From an uncultured Bacteroidota bacterium (lineage in GTDB: Bacteria; Bacteroidota; Bacteroidia; Flavobacteriales_F; PHOS-HE28), in assembly GCA_902826215.1 (NCBI GenBank), contig CADEDY010000005.1:62001-126000 (forward strand): a stretch of DNA of 64,000 nucleotides. The letters are read 5' to 3'. The translations under genes were made by a program, and so were the position numbers. Positions 9,064 through 19,205 of this stretch are shown piece after piece (within the stretch, counting starts at the first letter, position 1; each line of letters opens with the position of its first letter). The notes under the pieces were generated by a model. It ran no database searches. It saw nothing but the letters and a program-made list of their open reading frames with translations, and was not told where the DNA came from.

Positions 9064-9720
9064 TCAGTTCAGGAGTCCATCGCGTAAACTCTTCGCAACG
9101 GCTTCCGTGTTGCTCTTCACGGCGAGCTTTTCATACAGGTTCTTGATGTGGGACCGCACGGTCTCGAAACCCAACCCGAGCTGCGCCGCGATCATCTTGT
9201 AGCTCTTTCCTGCCACCAACGCACGCAGAACATCCTTCTCTCTACGGCTAAGCAGGACCTAGTCGAAATGCGAAAGTACTGGCTGAAGATGAACGGAAAC
9301 ACGACGGCCTATGCTGCCTGCCTTCGTTCGTTGTCCACTGCTGATCGCCGTGATCGCCAGGAGGAGTTCGGTCGGGTCGGAACACGTCAACAAGTATCCA
9401 TCGGTTCCGATCGGAAGACCCCCTTTTGGTAAATGGACATCGTCGGCAAGGGCGATCATCACGATGGCATGGGTGGGTCTATGATGCTCGGTCGGTCCTT
9501 GCAAGGGCAATGATCTGGCCATCATTCGGGTTGTTCGTTCGGGACTACATCGGACTCCATCTTCGATGTGAACGATCATCGGTAGGGATCCGCTCGATAC
9601 GCGCGGTCCCACGCTGTCGAACCGGTGCAGTTGGAGCTTGTTGTTCACATTTGCTTTCGATCCCGATGTGTACATGGGAACGCCTTCTTGACCACGATCC
9701 CGATGACCAGAATGGACATG
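9064..9720 (-). pseudogene. Decayed NarL/LuxR-family response regulator
   Basis: The 3' part (9064-9258) reads as a full LuxR-type HTH: LSRREKDVLRALVAGKSYKM, IAAQLGLGFETVRSHIKN, then LYEKLAVKSNTEAVAKS. In the same frame a TAG at 9259-9261 separates it from a receiver C-terminus (DGYLLTCSDPTELLLAITAI). Further upstream only fragments such as MSILVI and IVHIEDG can be matched, in different frames, so the receiver probably also carries frameshifts. The whole 8954-9778 stretch holds no other gene that I can support. The HTH alone has no evident start codon. It is a pseudogene unless the amber codon and frameshifts are sequence errors. Confidence 0.78.
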
Positions 9721-9778
9721 AACTTCCGATCGCCGTATACTCGTGGTTCATCTCCCACCCATTTTGCAACGGATCACA

Positions 9779-10351
9779 ATGGATGTCCTAAGCGCCACCG
9801 GATGGGTGGAGTCCCTGCGGCGCAACGATCCGGTGGTGATACGTTCGCTTTATGCCAAGCATTTCCGCACTATTCGGAACTATGTGGTCCAGAACAGCGG
9901 AACAGCGACCGAAGCAGAGGATGTTTTCCAAGAGGCCATCACCATTCTTTGGATGAAGGTGAAGGAAGGCACGGTCTGTCAGGAGAATACCCCGGATCCC
10001 GGAGGCTACCTCTTCCGTGTGGCCAAGAACAAATGGCTGGATGTGGTCCGGTCAGCATCGCATAAGCACATGAAGGTCGTACACGATGATCGGATCAATG
10101 TGCTGGACGCGGACTCCGATGACGATGTCGAGGAGCGCATCGCGCGGTTGCGCGGCGTATATGCCAAGCTCGATGACAAGTGCCGCACGGTGCTCGACCA
10201 GTTCTACTTCGAGCGGAAGGATCTCGCTACGATCGCTCATGCAATGGGAGTGGAAGAGGAGAGTATCCGTACGATCAAGTATCGCTGCATGATGAAGCTA
10301 CGAGCATTCCGCCGCGCCATCACCGGTGAGGAAAATAACGAGGTAGCATGA
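9779..10351 (+). CDS. ECF-type RNA polymerase sigma factor
   Basis: 190 residues from the ATG giving MDVLSATGWVESLRRNDPVV. The sigma-2 region lies at about 25-90 (SLYAKHFRTIRNYVVQNSG, AEDVFQEAITILWMKVKEG, YLFRVAKNKWLDVVRS). The sigma-4 helix-turn-helix lies at about 130-180 (LDDKCRTVLDQFYFERKDLA, TIAHAMGVEEESIRTIKYRC). It has no extension beyond these two regions, as usual for ECF factors. Its stop overlaps the next start as ATGA, so translation is probably coupled to the putative anti-sigma protein. It is likely to drive a small regulon, perhaps including its own operon. No matching promoter motif could be recognised. Confidence 0.92.
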   Translation: MDVLSATGWVESLRRNDPVVIRSLYAKHFRTIRNYVVQNSGTATEAEDVFQEAITILWMKVKEGTVCQENTPDPGGYLFRVAKNKWLDVVRSASHKHMKVVHDDRINVLDADSDDDVEERIARLRGVYAKLDDKCRTVLDQFYFERKDLATIAHAMGVEEESIRTIKYRCMMKLRAFRRAITGEENNEVA

Positions 10352-11070
10352 CCCAGGGAGCATTGGACAGGACCCGGTTCGAGACCATTGAAGCGTATGT
10401 GCTCGGTACCATGTCCGATGATGAACGAGCCCGTTTCGGATCGGCCTTGGAACTCGACCCGGCCCTACGAGCGGAGGTCGACCTGCAGCGCGAGAACATC
10501 CTGGCGATCGAACTGGGCGGCGTTTCCCGCACGTTGCGTGAAGTAGCATCCGAACAAGCGTCGACCAAAGGCGGAGGTCGGAACCATCTGCTCAAGTATG
10601 CCGCCGCAGTGGCGGTCGTGCTGGCCGGTGCTTTCGTGTGGTTGCTCACTCCGTCACCTTCGGAACGGCTTTTTGCCGCGTATTATGTGTCCGATCCGGG
10701 CTTGCCTGTGCCCATGAGCGCGTTAAGTGACGCGGCTTTTCAAGATGCGATGGTGGCCTATAAGCTTGGTGAGTATGCTGAGGCCAAAGTGAAATGGGAA
10801 GAGATCCTCCTGCAGGAACCCTCGAACGATACGCTGATCTATTACCTCGGGAGTGCTGCACTCGCGTCAGGTGATGTGATGGAAGCGATACGTAGGCTCG
10901 AACCGCTATCGAAGGATACCTCGAGCACCTTTCACGCCAAGGCGAAGTGGTATCTCTTCCTCGCCTATGTGCGTGTGAAGGATCTCGAGAAGCTGAGAAC
11001 ACTTCACCTGGAGAACGACCCGGTCTATGGCGATCGTGTGCGCACGATCACATCCGAACTCGGGTCGTGA
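10348..11070 (+). CDS. Membrane-anchored anti-sigma-like protein with periplasmic TPR region
   Basis: 240 residues. Residues 11-60 (IEAYVLGTMSDDERARFGSA, ELDPALRAEVDLQRENIL) look like the cytosolic N-terminus of Bacteroidota anti-sigma factors, without a zinc-binding HxxxCxxC. One transmembrane helix spans about 82-100. The rest should be periplasmic and is TPR-like (DAMVAYKLGEYAEAKVKWEE, YLGSAALASGDVMEAIRRLE). It overlaps the sigma gene by 4 bases and the CHAT gene by 1 base. Anti-sigma function is inferred from position and topology; the TPR part could instead dock the CHAT protein. Confidence 0.75.
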   Translation: MTQGALDRTRFETIEAYVLGTMSDDERARFGSALELDPALRAEVDLQRENILAIELGGVSRTLREVASEQASTKGGGRNHLLKYAAAVAVVLAGAFVWLLTPSPSERLFAAYYVSDPGLPVPMSALSDAAFQDAMVAYKLGEYAEAKVKWEEILLQEPSNDTLIYYLGSAALASGDVMEAIRRLEPLSKDTSSTFHAKAKWYLFLAYVRVKDLEKLRTLHLENDPVYGDRVRTITSELGS

Positions 11071-14000
11071 TGCGTTCCGTGGTCCTCTTATCGGCTCTTG
11101 TCTTGGGTGCATTCCATGCCTTCGCACAGGCGGATCAGCGGATCGCTGAACGACATGCGCGGATCAGCGAACTCTACGATGCCGAGAACTACACAGCCAC
11201 GATAGAGGCGATCGACCTGCAACTGAAGGAAGTGCCAGGGACCACGTGGCAAGATTCCATCCACCTGTATGTTTACAAGTACGGCCGCGCGAAATGGAAG
11301 GTGAAGGGAGCCGCAGCGGGTACGGCTGCCGCAGAAGCGCTGTATGCCACGCTCCTCGCCCAAGGGATCCAGCCGGCGCAGCACATGGATGTACTTTCCG
11401 ACCTCAGCTGGTTGTACTATGATCTCGGTGAGATGAAGGCGTGCTTGCGCGTGGACTCCATGGCCCTTGCTGAAGCCCAACGGAACTCCGACGTGGGATC
11501 GAGCAAACTGGCCCATGCACATCAGAACGTGGCTTTCGATCACGCGATCATGGCCCATCACACAGAGGCCTTGAAGAGTTACCTCGCTGCCAAGGTCATC
11601 TACGAACGTTCCCCAGTTCCTGCGTATTTGGATCTGAGCGAATGCTGCAACGGAGCGGGTGTTAGTTCTTGGCACTTGGGTCGAACCCACGATGCAGAAC
11701 ACTACTACCGGGAGGCGCTCACGAACCTGGAACGCTCGGATGCGCCCAATGTCGTTGTGCGCAAGGCCGGCATCCTGTCCAACATCGGCATCATGTGGCA
11801 GGATGCGGGGGATATCGCTCGCAGCAAATTGTCCTACCAGGAAGGGGTCCGGATGTGTACGGAGGCGATGTCGAGCACCAGCGATCCAACAGTGCGTGAT
11901 GCGGCCGTGCTTTCCCGGTCCAAGGCCTATGTGAACCTCGCCACCGTGTACTTCTCCATGGGCGACAATGCACATTCGCAAGAGCTGTTGGACCTAGCGT
12001 ATCGTGATCGTTCGAGCATTCTGGAACCCGGTGACGCACGTATTCTCGGGATCCGCGAACGCATGGCCGATATCGCCATGGAGACCGGTGATCTGGCCCG
12101 TGCAGAGACGGATATCGTCGACTACATGAAGGCATGTGCCACGCATTATGGGACCCATAACGAAGAGTACTTCCGTGCCAGCACCAAACTTGCCGAGGTC
12201 TATGCAGGGCAAGGTCGGGTGCAGGAAGCAGCGGCCATGTTCGAACGAACCATCGCCGAGCAGAAAGCCGCTCCCCAAGCGTCCATGGATCCGCAGTTGG
12301 CCGTCGCCTTTCGTCGCCGTTCACGTTTCTTCTTGGATCAAGGAAAGGTGCAGGAAGCCTTGGACGACCTGCAGGCGGCCCGGTCCATCATGAGCCAAGT
12401 GCATGGAGACGGACATTACAAAGTAGCCCAGTACGAGGTGCTGCTCGCCGAAGCCGCCTTGGCCGACGACGATGCAACCACTGCCCTGCGTTGGAGCACC
12501 TCCGCGTTGGAACGACTCGATGACCGTGCCGAAGCGTTGGGGGGCAACGCGCTTCCCAGAGCCTTTCCACAGCCGCAGCTTTTGACCGATGCGCTCCTTT
12601 GGAAAGTGAAGGCCGAGCGCGCTTTGTCGAATGGTACTGCCTTGGATCCGGATTGGAGCACGGATCTTGACCTGGCGATCCGCTCCTTGGACCGCAACCG
12701 GGCGGCGATCGACGATGAAGGGTCGCAACTGGGTCTGGTCGGTGAGCAGAAGGTGCTTTTCGACCTCGCCATCGACCTCGCCTATGAAACCTATGCACAG
12801 AGCGGGAAGTTGAGTGATATCGATCGATTCTTGGCACTGATGGAAGCCGACCGATCCATCTTGCTGAAGAGCCGCTTGAACGAATTCACGAGTTTGCGTT
12901 TTGCCGGTGTGCCCGATAGCATCCTGATCCGCGAGCGCGCTTTGATCCAGGCCATGGAGGTCGACCCGGATAATGAGCAAGCCCTCGATCTTACGTTGAA
13001 TGCGGAAAGGGAGTACGCCGTTTTCCTGGAACGATTGAGCGAACGATATCCACGCTACTTCGATCTGCGCTATGGGACCACGACGATCGATGTGGAAGAT
13101 GTGCGGAAGAAACTGCTCGGACCGGATCGTGATCTGCTGGCCTATGCCATCACTTCTGATCACCTGTACATGCTCGTCATCCGTATGGATACCGCAGCCA
13201 TCGTGCGCGTGAAGAACAGCGAAGTGGCCGATGCAACACGTGCCCTGAACGATGCCATCAACTCCAGGGATCGTGCCGCCTACAGCACTGCTGGTCACCG
13301 CGCGTACACCTTGTTCTTCGCCCCGGTCGCTCCGCTGTTGACCGGTCATGAACTGCTGGTCATTCCCGACGGTCCCCTGCACACCATCAACTTCGAAACA
13401 CTACTTGAGGATCCATCCTCAACGGACCTTGTTGCGAATTCCCTGATCCAGCGCTACGCCTTCGCCTACCTGTTGTCGGCCACCACCGCCGTGCAGTTCG
13501 CGAACATGGTGCGTGATCGATCGCGTGGTGTTCTTGCTCTTGCACCGGGCTTCACCAAGCCGATGAAACAGCGCTATCTCGCTGGCCTTGCTGATACAAG
13601 TGCTGCCGATCATGAATTCCTCAACTATGTGCGGCAGCCGTTCGCTGTGAATACGGCGCGTTCATTGGGAAGGACGCTCAACGCCACGATCCTGGTGGAT
13701 GGTGATGCAGATGAACGGAACTTCCGCGAGCGCGCCGAACGATCGGGGGTCATCCACCTCGGGACCCATGCCGAGATGAACACGATAGCGCCCATGTACT
13801 CGCGCTTGGTGCTGAGCAAAGGCGACACTTCGGATAACGAGTTCGACGGCTACCTGCATGCCTACGAGATCTACGAACTCGATCTTCGTGCGCAACTGGC
13901 CGTGCTCTCGGCCTGCAGAACGGGAACGGGAAAGAACGACGAAGGAGAAGGCGTGCGCTCCTTGGGATATGGTTTCGCCTACGCCGGCTGCCCCAGTTTA

Positions 14001-14294
14001 GTGATGTCCTTGTGGAGCATCGATGAGAAGGTGAGTGCCGAGATCATCGAGGGCTTCTATCATCACCTTGCTGCCGGTATGCCCAAGCATCTGGCCTTGC
14101 GCCAAGCCAAGCTGGATCATCTGGAACATGCGCGGGACGAACTGGATCTGCCGTACTACTGGGCCGGCTTGGTGCTCGTAGGTGATGTGTCACCCGTGCA
14201 ACTGGATAGCGGTTGGCAAGGCTACGCGTGGTGGGTCGGGATCGCACTTTTCCTGATCCTATCCGTTCTGATCTGGAGGTCACGGCGGCGGTGA
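11070..14294 (+). CDS. Exported TPR-CHAT (caspase-like) protease with C-terminal membrane anchor
   Basis: 1074 residues from the ATG overlapping the previous stop (TGATG). Signal peptide MRSVVLLSALVLGAFHAFAQ, long TPR array at about 60-480, a helical linker, then a CHAT domain at about 740-1045. The probable catalytic dyad is His900 (VIHLGTHAEM) and Cys949 (AVLSACRTGTGKN). Other CHAT hallmarks are LLVIPDGPLHTINFETLL and LVMSLWSIDEK. A single helix, WVGIALFLILSVLIW, and an RSRRR tail end the protein, so the protease should face the periplasm anchored in the inner membrane. CHAT proteins are caspase/separase-clan cysteine peptidases. The operon partner with a periplasmic TPR domain is the obvious candidate substrate or regulator (inference). 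Confidence 0.9.
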   Translation: MRSVVLLSALVLGAFHAFAQADQRIAERHARISELYDAENYTATIEAIDLQLKEVPGTTWQDSIHLYVYKYGRAKWKVKGAAAGTAAAEALYATLLAQGIQPAQHMDVLSDLSWLYYDLGEMKACLRVDSMALAEAQRNSDVGSSKLAHAHQNVAFDHAIMAHHTEALKSYLAAKVIYERSPVPAYLDLSECCNGAGVSSWHLGRTHDAEHYYREALTNLERSDAPNVVVRKAGILSNIGIMWQDAGDIARSKLSYQEGVRMCTEAMSSTSDPTVRDAAVLSRSKAYVNLATVYFSMGDNAHSQELLDLAYRDRSSILEPGDARILGIRERMADIAMETGDLARAETDIVDYMKACATHYGTHNEEYFRASTKLAEVYAGQGRVQEAAAMFERTIAEQKAAPQASMDPQLAVAFRRRSRFFLDQGKVQEALDDLQAARSIMSQVHGDGHYKVAQYEVLLAEAALADDDATTALRWSTSALERLDDRAEALGGNALPRAFPQPQLLTDALLWKVKAERALSNGTALDPDWSTDLDLAIRSLDRNRAAIDDEGSQLGLVGEQKVLFDLAIDLAYETYAQSGKLSDIDRFLALMEADRSILLKSRLNEFTSLRFAGVPDSILIRERALIQAMEVDPDNEQALDLTLNAEREYAVFLERLSERYPRYFDLRYGTTTIDVEDVRKKLLGPDRDLLAYAITSDHLYMLVIRMDTAAIVRVKNSEVADATRALNDAINSRDRAAYSTAGHRAYTLFFAPVAPLLTGHELLVIPDGPLHTINFETLLEDPSSTDLVANSLIQRYAFAYLLSATTAVQFANMVRDRSRGVLALAPGFTKPMKQRYLAGLADTSAADHEFLNYVRQPFAVNTARSLGRTLNATILVDGDADERNFRERAERSGVIHLGTHAEMNTIAPMYSRLVLSKGDTSDNEFDGYLHAYEIYELDLRAQLAVLSACRTGTGKNDEGEGVRSLGYGFAYAGCPSLVMSLWSIDEKVSAEIIEGFYHHLAAGMPKHLALRQAKLDHLEHARDELDLPYYWAGLVLVGDVSPVQLDSGWQGYAWWVGIALFLILSVLIWRSRRR

Positions 14295-14403: not shown

Positions 14404-17133
14404 TCAAGCTTCGGCCATTGCCTCGTCGAACTTCACGCCGATGCGCAGCTCGTTCCGCAGCACCAAACGGCCGTTCTGTGGCCGCAGGAAGTACAGGGCA
14501 TCCACTTCGCTCACCGGTTCCGGGGCGGCGGTGATCGCCATGAAGCCGAGGTCACGCGCCATGCCCAACACGGCCTTGCGGTTCACGGCATCCAAGGAGT
14601 GCACCTCATCGAGGAAGAACGGCACCCGCGAAAGTGGCATGTGCTTCTTCGGATCCTCTTTCAGCATGCTGCGCAGAACGAGCAGGTTGAAGAGCACCTT
14701 GATGGTGATCGCGGTACCGTGGCTTTCCACCTGCAGGTTGTCGTAGCTGTGTGTGCGGCCTCCCTTGGTACTGATCGTGAAACGCAGGGTGAAGAGGTCA
14801 CCGTAGTTCAATGTCAGGCGCTCGCTCAACTTGTTGCGGAAGCTCTGATAGGCGGCGTCGAGTTTGCTGCTACTATCGAAGAGGCCGGTGTGATCGGTCT
14901 CGGCCAGTTCCTTCAACGCGGCGACCAGTTCGTTCTGGTCCATCACCTCCATGCGCAGGCTTTCCAAGTTGCTCACGCTCACATTGCCGAAGCGGCGGTT
15001 GAGTTTTTCGGCCGCGCTCTTGATGTCGTTCAGGCCGTTGAGCACGTTCGCGAAGTTGGCGCGCAACAGGTGCAGGTAGTTGTCCCAATCCTTCCGCAGC
15101 GTCTCCTCGAATGTTGGTAGACCTTCAAGCTGTTCCTTCATCAAGCGCACCGTTTCCATCTCGGTGGGGCCGATGATGTCGCTCTTCAGCACACCCTCGA
15201 TCTTGCTGCGCAACTGATCCATCTCGCGGCTCATCGCGTTGTGCTCCGTCATGTGCTTGCCATAGAGTGCGATGGCATCCTCCGGGTCGTTCGGCACGGA
15301 GATCAAGGCGGTCCCGGTGGCATCTGGATCGGGAGGTGGTACGCATTGCTCCATCAAGCGAAGCAGGCGATTAAAGCGCTCGTCCTCCTGGTTCAGTGCG
15401 GTGCGTTGCTCGAAGAGCTTCACGCTGATCTCGTCCAGCTTCTCACGTACTTCCTTGCGCTCCGAGTCCGCCGCAGCCTTTTCCTTGTTCACTTCAGCGA
15501 GGCGCTTTTGGAGGCGGGGTTCGTCCTCCTTCACCGCTTGGAAGTTCTCCCACTTGTGCAGCAGTTTATCATGTGCTTCACATTCCGCTTGCACCTTCGC
15601 GCGCTCCTTGGCAAGGGCTTCGCGATTCTCGATCGCATCCATCAACCTGCGCAAGCGGTCCTGTTCGGCCTTGAGGTCGGTCAGCGCTTTCTTCAAGGCC
15701 TTCACGTCAACCAGCTCTTTCCACGCGTGGCTGTTGTCGGGCAGTGGCAATTTCAACAGGGCATCGCTATATGTGTCATCGGTGATGTTCTCCGCGAGCG
15801 TCTTCAGCAAGGCATCGATCTGCTTGCGCTTCTTCAGTTCCACACCGCCTTTCTCCACGGGCAGTTTCAGTACCTCCATGTTGAAGAGCTTCGACAGGCC
15901 TTGCAGCGCATCGTCGCTCATCGTTTCGCGCAACTCGGTGATCAGCGCCTTGTCGAAGTTGGAGATAGCGCGTTCGGTGCTGGTCACTCGACCGGTCACT
16001 TCAGCGAGGCTGCGTGCTGTGCGCTGGCGGTCGGCTTCTTCGGCATTGCCGAGCTGACGGCTCAGGAGATGCAGGCGCTCTTTCGCGTTGTTCAGGGCTT
16101 CGCGCTCCAGATTCTCCACGAACTGCTCCAGGCCTTTGCCCAGATCCGAGATGCGTGAAAGGTCGCCTTCTACCCGACCCTTGGCACCCGCGATCTCCGC
16201 GATCTTCTCGTCGAAGTCCTTCAGGATCTCGGCCGTGCTGATCTTCTCCTTCTCCAGTGCGTCCTGCTTCGCGATGATGGCCTCCTTTACGTGCTTGTTG
16301 TGGTCGTGCGCTTTGCGGCGCTTCTCCATCAGGTCGCGGTATACGAAGGCGAGGCGGGCCTCCAGGTCGAAGCGCACATCGCTCATGCCGATGTACTTCT
16401 CGAGGCGCTCCTTCTCGCTCTTCAGCGTGTTCAATTTCAAGCGACGATCACGGATGCGTTCGAAGTCCTCGGTCATCAACCGGTTCGCTTCCAAAGCGGG
16501 CTTGTTCGGCGGAATGCTCGCCAACATCAGCAAGCTGCGCTTCATCTCGTTCTGATCGATCGAGCGCAGGCTTAAGAGGTTCTTCAGCACTTCCTTGAAG
16601 TGCGCGTAGCGTTCGGTTTCAGTGAGGTGAACGATACCCAGACCGTTGCTCTCCCCCTTGGTGGCGACGAGGATCGCTTCGCGGTGCGCTGCTGCGTCAC
16701 GTAGCTCGTGATAGTTCCGCTCGATGAGCTTCGCGTTCACCGCCTTCGGGTCCAATACCCGGCCGTCCTTGCCGAGGTAGTCATCCACATCGTAGGTGCC
16801 GTCATAGGTAAAGCGCACGGGGTCGCCGCCACCGGTCTTGCTCTGCCCGCGCCAGCCGAGCACGTAGGATCCTTTCGGTCCTTGGCACTCGAACAACAGG
16901 TAGCTGAAATGGTCGGGGAAGTAATATGCACGCGTTGCTTCCGGCTCGTGATCTCCGAAGGCCATCTGGTTGCGGTTGTCCAGATAGAGGAATTGCAACG
17001 TGTTGATCAGCGTCGTCTTTCCAGCGTTGTTCGGTCCGACCAGTTGGATCGAGTTCGCGAGTTCCACCTCCGCGTAATCATAGCTTCCGGATCGGATCGC
17101 GATGAGCTTGGTAGGTCCTGTTCCTGCTTGCAT
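14404..17133 (-). CDS. SMC-like ATPase, MksB/JetC type
   Basis: 909 residues. Walker A is GPNNAGKT at 33-40, followed by TLINTLQFLYLDNRNQMAFG. Long heptad-rich coiled coils run from about 200 to 760 around a central region. The C-terminal lobe holds Walker B with the Asp842-Glu843 pair (VPFFLDEVHSLD) and then MAITAAPEPV. The head / coil / hinge / coil / head layout and the two small genes upstream fit a MukBEF-like complex (MksB or Wadjet JetC). Such complexes extrude DNA loops using ATP. It is the last gene of a three-gene minus-strand unit and no JetD-type nuclease follows; the next gene is convergent. Whether it works in chromosome organisation or plasmid defence cannot be told from sequence alone. 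Confidence 0.85.
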   Translation of the reverse strand: MQAGTGPTKLIAIRSGSYDYAEVELANSIQLVGPNNAGKTTLINTLQFLYLDNRNQMAFGDHEPEATRAYYFPDHFSYLLFECQGPKGSYVLGWRGQSKTGGGDPVRFTYDGTYDVDDYLGKDGRVLDPKAVNAKLIERNYHELRDAAAHREAILVATKGESNGLGIVHLTETERYAHFKEVLKNLLSLRSIDQNEMKRSLLMLASIPPNKPALEANRLMTEDFERIRDRRLKLNTLKSEKERLEKYIGMSDVRFDLEARLAFVYRDLMEKRRKAHDHNKHVKEAIIAKQDALEKEKISTAEILKDFDEKIAEIAGAKGRVEGDLSRISDLGKGLEQFVENLEREALNNAKERLHLLSRQLGNAEEADRQRTARSLAEVTGRVTSTERAISNFDKALITELRETMSDDALQGLSKLFNMEVLKLPVEKGGVELKKRKQIDALLKTLAENITDDTYSDALLKLPLPDNSHAWKELVDVKALKKALTDLKAEQDRLRRLMDAIENREALAKERAKVQAECEAHDKLLHKWENFQAVKEDEPRLQKRLAEVNKEKAAADSERKEVREKLDEISVKLFEQRTALNQEDERFNRLLRLMEQCVPPPDPDATGTALISVPNDPEDAIALYGKHMTEHNAMSREMDQLRSKIEGVLKSDIIGPTEMETVRLMKEQLEGLPTFEETLRKDWDNYLHLLRANFANVLNGLNDIKSAAEKLNRRFGNVSVSNLESLRMEVMDQNELVAALKELAETDHTGLFDSSSKLDAAYQSFRNKLSERLTLNYGDLFTLRFTISTKGGRTHSYDNLQVESHGTAITIKVLFNLLVLRSMLKEDPKKHMPLSRVPFFLDEVHSLDAVNRKAVLGMARDLGFMAITAAPEPVSEVDALYFLRPQNGRLVLRNELRIGVKFDEAMAEA

Positions 17134-17233
17134 GTGTTCGTTGTTGATGTTCTGCCGATCACTTCCCCGAGGGATCCGTGTTGCGAACGTCTTGGATTTC
17201 TCTGTGTCCTTTGAGCCTCTGTGGTGAAGAACT

Positions 17234-17809
17234 TCAATTCATCTCCGGATCGATCATCGGCGTGCTCGGCAATACTTCGCGCTGCTCGCGTTCGGCTGCT
17301 TCGCTGATCTCCTGGCACTTGTCGAACAAGCGGTGGAAGGGGCGAAGGAAGCGGAAGGAATCATCGTTATTGTACTCGGCCCATCCCTTGGTGGCCATGC
17401 TCTTGAGCAATTTCCGCAAGCCCGCTTCGTCGTCGACATCTACGGCGCGCATGTGTGCTTTGTAGCGGTCGCTCTTCAGGTGCGGCAGATCCGTCAAGGT
17501 GAAACGCTCGGTGAGCAGGTACTCCTCCACCGGACGTCCTTCGTTGGAAGCGGCTTCTATAAGGATGAAGCAGAAAACCGCCATGGGCGCTAGGGATGCA
17601 GCAGGTGGAGTTCCTTCTGCGGTCTCCGTGTGGAAGTAGAAGAAGTCGCGCGGATGGCGCATCAGGTTCAAACCAAGTGGCTCGAAATAATCGCGGTAGC
17701 CTTCGTAGTTCTCGGCGATGGCCGCATGCATCGGTCCCTGTTCATGGGTGATGTACGCACCTTGACGGAGCTTGTCGAAGATGTCCTTGAGCTGTGGAAG
17801 CGTGTTCAT
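17234..17809 (-). CDS. SMC-complex accessory subunit, MksE/JetB-like
   Basis: 191 residues. It begins MNTLPQLKDIFDKLRQGAYI, has winged-helix-like segments (GLNLMRHPRDFFYFHTE; ERFTLTDLPHLKSD; GLRKLLKSMATKGWAEYNND) and ends in an acidic tail. Size, position between a 415-residue protein and the SMC-like ATPase, and the arrangement of small winged-helix motifs fit a KITE subunit such as MksE or JetB, which bridges the ATPase heads and the kleisin. Direct sequence recognition is weak, so the assignment rests mainly on gene order. It is 33 bases from the upstream gene and 100 bases from the downstream ATPase. Confidence 0.68.
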   Translation of the reverse strand: MNTLPQLKDIFDKLRQGAYITHEQGPMHAAIAENYEGYRDYFEPLGLNLMRHPRDFFYFHTETAEGTPPAASLAPMAVFCFILIEAASNEGRPVEEYLLTERFTLTDLPHLKSDRYKAHMRAVDVDDEAGLRKLLKSMATKGWAEYNNDDSFRFLRPFHRLFDKCQEISEAAEREQREVLPSTPMIDPEMN

Positions 17810-17842
17810 GCGTAGTGCGCTTAGGCCTTGTAAAGACGATCC

Positions 17843-19090
17843 TTATTTCGTTTTGGCGGAGGAAGGCGAGACTTTGGTGATGGAGATGGAGGATGCTTCA
17901 AGCACGCCGTCCCGGGTGCGGTATTCCTTGGTCTTGCCCCCTTTGAAGGAGACATCGAGTTTCGGGTCGAAGAGCAATTTGCTCAAGCCCAGCAACGCAT
18001 CGGCAGTGCCCTTCTCCGGGAAGTTGCCGGTGATCCAACTTGTCAGATCCTTCACGGGAAGGTCCTCGTTGAGCATGTTGGGTAGTTCATTCAACCAGAG
18101 CAGACGCACGTAGTCGGGTGGTGTGTCGCTGCTCTCTGTGGTGTTCAATACCGGCGGTGCGATCGGTGGATGTGAGATCACATCGTCGACGATCTGGCGA
18201 AGCACTTCGTCCGTTGGCGGCACTTCGATCCGCGCATTCGTGGTCTGTGTCACATAGTTCGCCACCCAATCCTCTATGCGCATCTGGCGCAGGCGACCGA
18301 GGGCGAGCGTGGCGCCGTGCGCGATGGCTGAGGAACGACGCAGTACATCATACAATGGCTGCAATTCCTTGCGGCTCTCGTTCAAGGTGTGGATCGCACG
18401 ACGACGCATCACGCGGATCTGCCGCTCATTGCGCTCGATCATCGCCAACTCCACATACACGCCTTGCTCTCTGGCCCCGCGCAACACCATGTCGGTTTCG
18501 TCCAACGTGCTTTCCAGCAGGCCATCAACGCGGATGATCTCCACCAGTGGATGCACGTACTGATCCATCAGGCTCAGGATGCGGAGGTAGCGCTCGCGCA
18601 CGCTCACACTGCTGCGGTCGGCCTTGTAACGGGCCACTTCGGCCAACACAGCACGGTGCGTGGCGTCCAGGTCATCCTGCATGCGGCGCAGGGTGTGATC
18701 GATCTCGTTGGTGGCCATGGCCACGCTCAGAGCATCGCCAGACTCCACGCCGATCGCGATCCGCTTGCGGGCACTTTCCAACGCTGCGATGTAGCCCTGG
18801 ATGATCTCCGGGCTCGTAGGCAGCGCGTCGTTGTAGAGGAAGTTGAGCAACTGCAAAAGTGCCTGGCTCATCACGTAGTGCGAACTGCCCTCCTCGATCG
18901 GTACGATCACTTGTAATTCCAAGAGGCGCTGCCAGGTGGTCTCGGGCAGCTCGCTCGCAGCATCGCTGAAGGTGCGGATCATCTGGCGCACCTGCGCTTC
19001 GCTCACATCGCCGGGCTTGATGGCAATGGCGTGCAAAAGCGGCACGTGCGAGGCGCAGAAGTCGAAGAAGCGTTTCGGGGTCAGTTGCAT
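17843..19090 (-). CDS. SMC-complex kleisin-like subunit, MksF/JetA-like
   Basis: 415 residues from the ATG giving MQLTPKRFFDFCASHVPLLH; an in-frame ATG 17 codons further upstream is less likely because it adds a basic, low-complexity stretch. An N-terminal winged-helix-like region (about 1-100) is followed by helical, coiled segments (RMQDDLDATHRAVLAEVARY; ESRKELQPLYDVLRR) and a C-terminal domain after about 300. It leads the three-gene unit. Kleisins of the MksF/JetA group have this size and N-terminal winged helix. The name is inferred from architecture and context, not from a family signature I can point to. Confidence 0.68.
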   Translation of the reverse strand: MQLTPKRFFDFCASHVPLLHAIAIKPGDVSEAQVRQMIRTFSDAASELPETTWQRLLELQVIVPIEEGSSHYVMSQALLQLLNFLYNDALPTSPEIIQGYIAALESARKRIAIGVESGDALSVAMATNEIDHTLRRMQDDLDATHRAVLAEVARYKADRSSVSVRERYLRILSLMDQYVHPLVEIIRVDGLLESTLDETDMVLRGAREQGVYVELAMIERNERQIRVMRRRAIHTLNESRKELQPLYDVLRRSSAIAHGATLALGRLRQMRIEDWVANYVTQTTNARIEVPPTDEVLRQIVDDVISHPPIAPPVLNTTESSDTPPDYVRLLWLNELPNMLNEDLPVKDLTSWITGNFPEKGTADALLGLSKLLFDPKLDVSFKGGKTKEYRTRDGVLEASSISITKVSPSSAKTK

Positions 19091-19205
19091 CCGCCGGGTC
19101 TTAGCGGCAACAAAGTACCCGCCCCTAGGGCAATGCGACAAAGCGAGTTTCCAACAGGTGTTAGTAACCTTCTACTTCTCATTCCACGGATCATCTGGAA
19201 TGGAA

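Follow-up and report, generated by a model that had tools for sequence, protein, structure and literature searches.

Caspase-like proteases have mostly been discussed in the contexts of cell death and defence. RseA and RsiW are membrane anti-sigma factors whose periplasmic part is cut first, a site-2 cleavage following. The TPR-CHAT protease Csx29 of type III-E CRISPR systems cleaves the sigma inhibitor Csx30 in solution, with a H615/C658 pair (PMC10028731). In Myxococcus xanthus, the ECF sigma factor DdvS, which according to a review controls a CBASS and CRISPR-Cas island (PMC12288465), is paired with DdvA, a single protein uniting an anti-sigma part, a membrane segment and a C-terminal TPR-CHAT fold, and which may act without proteolysis. 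Two further groups place related genes side by side. In ECF54, an ECF sigma factor is encoded near a CHAT protein and proteolytic control has been proposed, the group being described without an anti-sigma factor (PMC8999054). In the EACC2-caspase-ECF-DUF1822 conflict systems, a caspase-like gene, an ECF sigma factor and a TPR protein adjoin (Kaur 2021, PMC8195603). Our literature search, outside which most subscription papers fell, returned no paper on an operon made of a sigma factor, a membrane anti-sigma factor and a tethered CHAT protein.

Such an operon is present in the window analysed here, a stretch of 64,000 nucleotides from an uncultured Bacteroidota bacterium (contig CADEDY010000005.1, positions 62,001 to 126,000). 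A sequence-only reading had described three genes overlapping by 4 and 1 bases, and these positions were verified in the reading frames. The three forward-strand ORFs (Table 1) are joined first by the stop codon of the sigma gene (10349-10351), which overlaps the anti-sigma ATG at 10348 by 4 bases, and then by the anti-sigma stop codon (11068-11070), which shares one base with the CHAT ATG at 11070. The start of the sigma gene is uncertain (GTG 9743, TTG 9767 or ATG 9779). Its product matches regions 2 and 4 only of the sigma-70 family (PF04542, 4.5e-7; PF04545, 1.3e-7) as well as TIGR02937, and is therefore of the ECF type. No RNA family was found in the operon region. The immediate neighbours are GroEL, a TonB-dependent receptor and a convergent operon on the reverse strand (14404-19141), which encodes an SMC-like ATPase (909 aa), an MksE homologue (PF21980, 6e-28) and a 432-aa protein, and is probably an MksBEF-type condensin operon.

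Table 1. Features of the sigma/anti-sigma/CHAT operon and of its upstream region, in window coordinates
Feature	Position	Strand	Basis
Divergent LuxR-type regulator	9064..9525	-	reading frames; relatives with GerE/LuxR HTH
Second, divergent copy of the predicted GTTCACAT/CCGAT promoter, toward the LuxR-type gene	9549..9573	-	conserved in genus
Predicted sigma-dependent operon promoter, GTTCACAT-N12-CCGAT	9643..9667	+	conserved upstream in genus; tracks sigma presence
Proximal housekeeping-like promoter, TGGACA-N17-TATACT	9713..9741	+	conserved CGTATTATCG element in genus; 10/12 matches
ECF-type sigma factor, 190 aa	9779..10351	+	Sigma70_r2, Sigma70_r4, TIGR02937 4.9e-18
Membrane anti-sigma factor, 240 aa	10348..11070	+	NCBIfam anti-sigma 4.2e-9, TPR, AlphaFold2
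Anti-sigma membrane helix, residues 79-100	10582..10647	+	sequence and AlphaFold2 helix
Juxtamembrane motif DPGLPVPMS, residues 116-124	10693..10719	+	conserved in type-1 genus anti-sigmas and in tandem loci of other families
Exported, membrane-tethered TPR-CHAT protease, 1074 aa	11070..14294	+	CHAT 1.6e-54; AlphaFold2; separase, Csx29 and DdvA folds
CHAT domain, residues 742-1039	13293..14186	+	Pfam PF12770
Catalytic His900 codon	13767..13769	+	invariant
Catalytic Cys949 codon	13914..13916	+	invariant
C-terminal membrane anchor, residues 1049-1073	14214..14288	+	AlphaFold2 helix; hydropathy; association with linkage

The second gene, placed directly 3' of the ECF sigma gene, encodes a protein with the organisation of a membrane anti-sigma factor, namely N-terminal helices and one membrane helix. 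The AlphaFold2 model (mean pLDDT 91.9) places cytosolic helices at residues 8-72, ahead of the membrane helix, and a periplasmic TPR domain at residues 129-240. The NCBIfam anti-sigma profile matches residues 14-118 below the model's cut-off, so that the anti-sigma-like N-terminus proposed earlier has weak support from it, and a Foldseek search with the model retrieved generic TPRs only. The cytosolic helices would be the part that binds the sigma factor.

The third protein is a CHAT peptidase on both counts examined, the profile match (185.7 bits for a cut-off of 24) and the catalytic pair. TPRs lie N-terminal to the CHAT domain, and the AlphaFold2 model (mean pLDDT 93.1, pTM 0.88) shows in addition a signal-like helix at the N-terminus and a helix at the C-terminal anchor. 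The numbering of the His900/Cys949 dyad was correct. A CHAT family mostly devoid of the dyad would have spoken against the sequence-only interpretation; on the contrary, neither residue varies in the two alignments examined, of 20 and of 64 CHATs, and the pair is kept in essentially all other full-length CHATs. The topology likewise holds on sequence and models, with all periplasmic parts facing one another. Cleavage by a cysteine enzyme would have to take place in the oxidising milieu of the periplasm, which is possible but tells somewhat against such a mechanism. In the window genome (4.16 Mb), the CHAT of the operon is the only one.

When the CHAT model was compared with solved structures, separases, Csx29 and DdvA came out as the closest folds. 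Matches to the Csx29/TPR-CHAT structures reached Z 31.9 (7y83_D) and 31.6 (8eey_B), and the match to DdvA (8rot_A) Z 21.9 over 586 residues, with a Foldseek value of 4e-13; the TPR-CHAT part thus has a DdvA-type fold. A sequence search with the CHAT profile likewise reaches DdvA (E=1.4e-8 for the CHAT part), in which both catalytic positions, His and Cys, are retained. Since a single protein combining an anti-sigma part, a membrane segment and a TPR-CHAT part exists in DdvA, this fusion independently links the two functions that are encoded side by side in the operon. A DdvA-type single chain was rejected for the operon itself, where anti-sigma and CHAT are separate genes, and no fused anti-sigma/TPR-CHAT protein was seen among the Bacteroidota CHAT ORFs examined.

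This relationship bears on the manner in which the CHAT protein might act. The operon could be a split DdvA that works by allostery, the CHAT protein binding the TPR domain or the linker of the anti-sigma factor as a sensor or co-inhibitor, without cutting, until a signal releases the sigma factor. DdvA lends itself to this explanation, being a one-chain combination of anti-sigma, TPR and CHAT whose structure was determined as that of a dimeric membrane anti-sigma factor, and a division into two chains would account equally well for the linkage and for the membrane tether. However, the His and Cys residues are invariant over very divergent CHATs and are retained by DdvA itself, and a purely structural role would not need them. 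Allostery without cleavage therefore seems to us doubtful, though it deserves to be taken seriously.

Conserved linkage between CHAT and anti-sigma genes, which the sequence-only reading had proposed as a check, holds far beyond the genus. About 26 loci of the window genus show the sigma/anti-sigma/CHAT order, and a second type of locus in the genus has the CHAT gene convergent with the anti-sigma and sigma genes. All told, the linkage extends across dozens of species and several orders of Bacteroidota, in tandem, convergent and divergent arrangements (30, 13 and 12, respectively, among the loci counted). A scan of named genomes, which used a genus alignment and gave a set biased toward relatives of the window CHAT, turned up convergent operons in Aquimarina and tandem ones, Chitinophagaceae included, in Niastella, Chitinophaga, Gynurincola, Flavihumibacter, Parapedobacter, Flexithrix, Saprospiraceae and Membranihabitans. 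Bacteroidota-type CHAT loci were also met in three MAGs labelled Thalassobius, Thalassovita and Rickettsiales (L287, L293, L317), probably on mis-binned contigs.

Another sample was built from 40 CHAT loci representing many families of the class and picked regardless of neighbourhood. An anti-sigma gene was present in the retrieved flank of 13 of them, compared to none of 19 control stretches, which came from the same genomes at a distance of 100-200 kb (p=0.005). Conversely, when anti-sigma genes were used as the anchor, a CHAT gene lay no more than 8 kb away in about 23 of 40 pairs. The pairing is thus not obligatory, as 27 of the 40 CHATs and about 17 of the 40 anti-sigmas have no partner nearby. 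The unpaired CHATs might be taken to indicate a chance or neutral neighbourhood devoid of any functional link. Yet the overlap of the genes, the recurrence in several orders and arrangements, the shared regulon and the association with the anchor described below already contradict such an explanation, which we find hardly credible.

The C-terminal anchor tracks the linkage. A hydrophobic anchor ends 59 of 63 CHATs encoded near an anti-sigma, against 26 of 56 CHATs without one (p=8e-9). With one CHAT-rich family set aside, the figures are 49/53 for linked and 7/36 for unlinked CHATs, the latter usually stopping straight after the CHAT domain, and in the family-spread sample they are 9/12 and 7/30 (p=0.004). 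As the sequences are related, these p-values are to be read as guides only. In one Bacteroidia genome (G035, loci L079-L098), CHAT was matched 29 times and about 11 relatives of the anti-sigma factor were counted; many of the CHATs there are tethered yet unlinked.

In the anti-sigma factor, the membrane helix is followed by a linker that leads to the TPR domain and bears, from D116 on, the motif DPGLPVxMS, whose residues D, P, G, L, P, V and M do not vary among the type-1 anti-sigmas of the genus. Mean conservation among these anti-sigmas is 3.40 bits for the linker and 2.75 bits for the TPR domain, and the motif is as conserved as the sigma-binding part. AlphaFold2 gives 93 at residues 111-120 and 70 at residues 121-130, a less certain stretch. 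DPGLPVxMS was found again in the tandem operons of other families, and in the anti-sigma-anchored set the motif or a close form occurs in 5 of 5 co-directional adjacent pairs, plus two others. Convergent and divergent pairs of other families mostly have YPNVxxPxxRG at the same juxtamembrane place (L122, L128, L317, L319, L321, L323, L327). We propose that DPGLPVxMS is the region recognised or cut by the CHAT protein. The cut of a first-step protease would be expected at a conserved juxtamembrane stretch, which judging from the alignments would be residues 116-124, before the TPR domain and not inside it, where the sequence-only reading had placed the cleavage. We make no claim that DPGLPV is specific to CHAT, because L353 and L356 carry the full motif, and L335 and L336 a partial form of it, without an adjacent CHAT. 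Given L353 and L356, and the other linker of convergent and divergent pairs, the motif may instead have to do with the TPR domain or with some other protease. Three of these loci (L335, L336, L353) are sigma/anti-sigma pairs with a DPGLP-like linker and no CHAT within 8 kb.

Upstream of the operon, two blocks, GTTCACAT and CCGAT, are conserved in the genus at a distance of 12-13 bases, often as two divergent copies; the window contains 2 such sites, for 0.08 expected. In pattern searches of 45 genus genomes, 32 of the 33 sigma-bearing ones contained the form with a 13-base spacing, as did 3 of the 12 sigma-less ones (p=2e-6). Among near-complete genomes, the counts are 23/23 and 1/7. Of the three sigma-less genomes with the motif, one is incomplete and another contaminated. 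The form with a 14-base spacing, used as an internal control, does not track the sigma factor. Two related blocks, GTTCACCTT and CGATATA, were noticed by eye upstream of the tandem operons of Chitinophagaceae and their relatives. We infer that the sigma factor reads the GTTCACAT/CCGAT motif. The LuxR-type protein encoded divergently from the operon, which co-occurs with it, is a rival reader; the sigma factor is favoured because the motif has a directional two-block form and is lost with the sigma gene. In the window, the LuxR-type gene is split by an in-frame TAG at 9259-9261, and is either a pseudogene or the result of an assembly error; its relatives are intact under the same promoter.

Promoter sites lie mostly 30-130 bases upstream of the starts of genes for secreted proteins, lipoproteins, the LuxR-type protein and the sigma factor itself, and several of the proteins behind them carry a type IX sorting domain. 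Secreted and surface proteins seem to be expressed under the control of this sigma factor. One target is a lipoprotein family ending in ..YWMNxxGQYFGTNDxxYDPN.., for which Pfam has no model. Its gene lies directly 5' of the sigma gene in Saprospiraceae-like and Flexithrix loci, and in the window genus away from the operon, where it was recovered independently by profile (G000:C9:67678 in the window genome). The promoter precedes all 20 lipoprotein genes that have uncut upstream DNA in sigma-bearing genomes, mostly at 62-65 bases from the start, and is absent before the clear lipoprotein gene of two near-complete sigma-less genomes (G011, G013). We regard the family as a candidate fourth component. 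Members of this lipoprotein or secreted family were recorded at L285:2958-4088, L287, L291, L300 and L330, and in the window genome at L171:1551-2705 and L373.

A regulon of secreted and surface proteins, together with the location of the CHAT gene inside an autoregulated operon and the control region that divergent CHATs share with the sigma gene in other families, would also suit a CHAT protein that is an output only, that is, a stress or secretion protease under sigma control which acts on envelope or secreted proteins and not on the anti-sigma factor. An output of this kind has no need to adjoin the anti-sigma gene in tandem, convergent and divergent order, when most other members of the regulon are scattered; moreover, the tether tracks the anti-sigma, and DdvA fuses anti-sigma and CHAT. 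We think a pure output role rather unlikely.

A functional coupling of the sigma factor, the anti-sigma factor and the CHAT protein is well supported. The interpretation given by the sequence-only reading is borne out in part, having gained from the conserved linkage, the dyad, the topology, the anchor, the juxtamembrane motif and the DdvA relative; the regulon and the relationship with DdvA are additions to it. That the operon is a two-chain, DdvA-like envelope switch, in which the CHAT protein cuts the anti-sigma factor and thereby frees the sigma factor, is a reading in which we place middling confidence. The switch would operate as follows. At rest, the anti-sigma factor would span the inner membrane with its short TPR domain in the periplasm and the sigma factor held by its cytosolic helices, and the exported TPR-CHAT protein would be retained on the same membrane by its C-terminal helix. 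A cue from the periplasm or the envelope, which may reflect how surface lipoproteins or type IX secretion are faring, would change the TPR solenoid of the CHAT protein and bring His900 and Cys949 into register. The protease would then cut the anti-sigma factor near DPGLPVxMS and remove its TPR domain, leaving a short stub as a substrate for a site-2 protease, which would free the sigma factor; the window genome has two M50 (site-2 type) protease genes whose products could finish the reaction. The freed sigma factor would drive its own operon, in a positive feedback that includes the CHAT gene, as well as the LuxR-type regulator, type IX cargo and lipoproteins. More tentatively, and falling somewhat short of such middling confidence, we suggest that the CHAT protein is a tethered site-1 protease that cuts DPGLPVxMS in the periplasm, thereby activating genes for type IX cargo and a conserved lipoprotein, this being a widespread mode of envelope sensing in Bacteroidota of which DdvA is the single-chain form in myxobacteria.

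If this is true, the tethered CHAT protein and membrane anti-sigma factor would carry the CHAT-sigma logic known from type III-E CRISPR over to ordinary envelope signalling, and many orphan ECF sigma factors of Bacteroidota would gain a proposed activating step. The protease probably opens the anti-sigma lock, and this would be a new bacterial way of sensing the envelope. The analysis yields a predicted promoter with a list of targets, a candidate region for the cut, and a lipoprotein family that is conserved although Pfam does not model it.

The operon was finally set against the known systems. PADLOC models gave no match of note with the three operon proteins, and a defence-system reading was dropped for this reason and for want of a CRISPR context. 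The operon differs from the EACC2-caspase-ECF-DUF1822 systems, which are characterised by EACC2 and TRADD-N domains and by a conflict context; a Pfam search found no domain of these types in the operon proteins. Membership in ECF54 was rejected, as a membrane anti-sigma factor is present here. In the RseA and RsiW pathways the site-1 enzyme is of the DegS or PrsW type, whereas here it would be a CHAT protein of the caspase fold. The type III-E module (Csx29, Csx30 and CASP-sigma) has the same three elements, a TPR-CHAT protease, a sigma inhibitor and an ECF-like sigma factor, but it is cytosolic, RNA-activated and associated with Cas7-11 and CRISPR, whereas the CHAT protein described here is exported and tethered. 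A type III-E CASP identity was rejected, as the TPR-CHAT fold is shared but the immediate neighbours, listed above, are not Cas7-11, Csx30 or a CRISPR array. The DdvA/DdvS pair (8rot, 8rw5) also has an ECF sigma factor and a membrane anti-sigma factor with a C-terminal TPR-CHAT fold. It belongs to another phylum and consists of one chain on the anti-sigma side, where the operon has two, each with a membrane helix, the anti-sigma factor having its own short TPR domain; in place of a defence island, type IX cargo and lipoproteins are predicted as targets here. Through the operon, Csx29 and DdvA, both known as outliers, can be seen as instances of one design.
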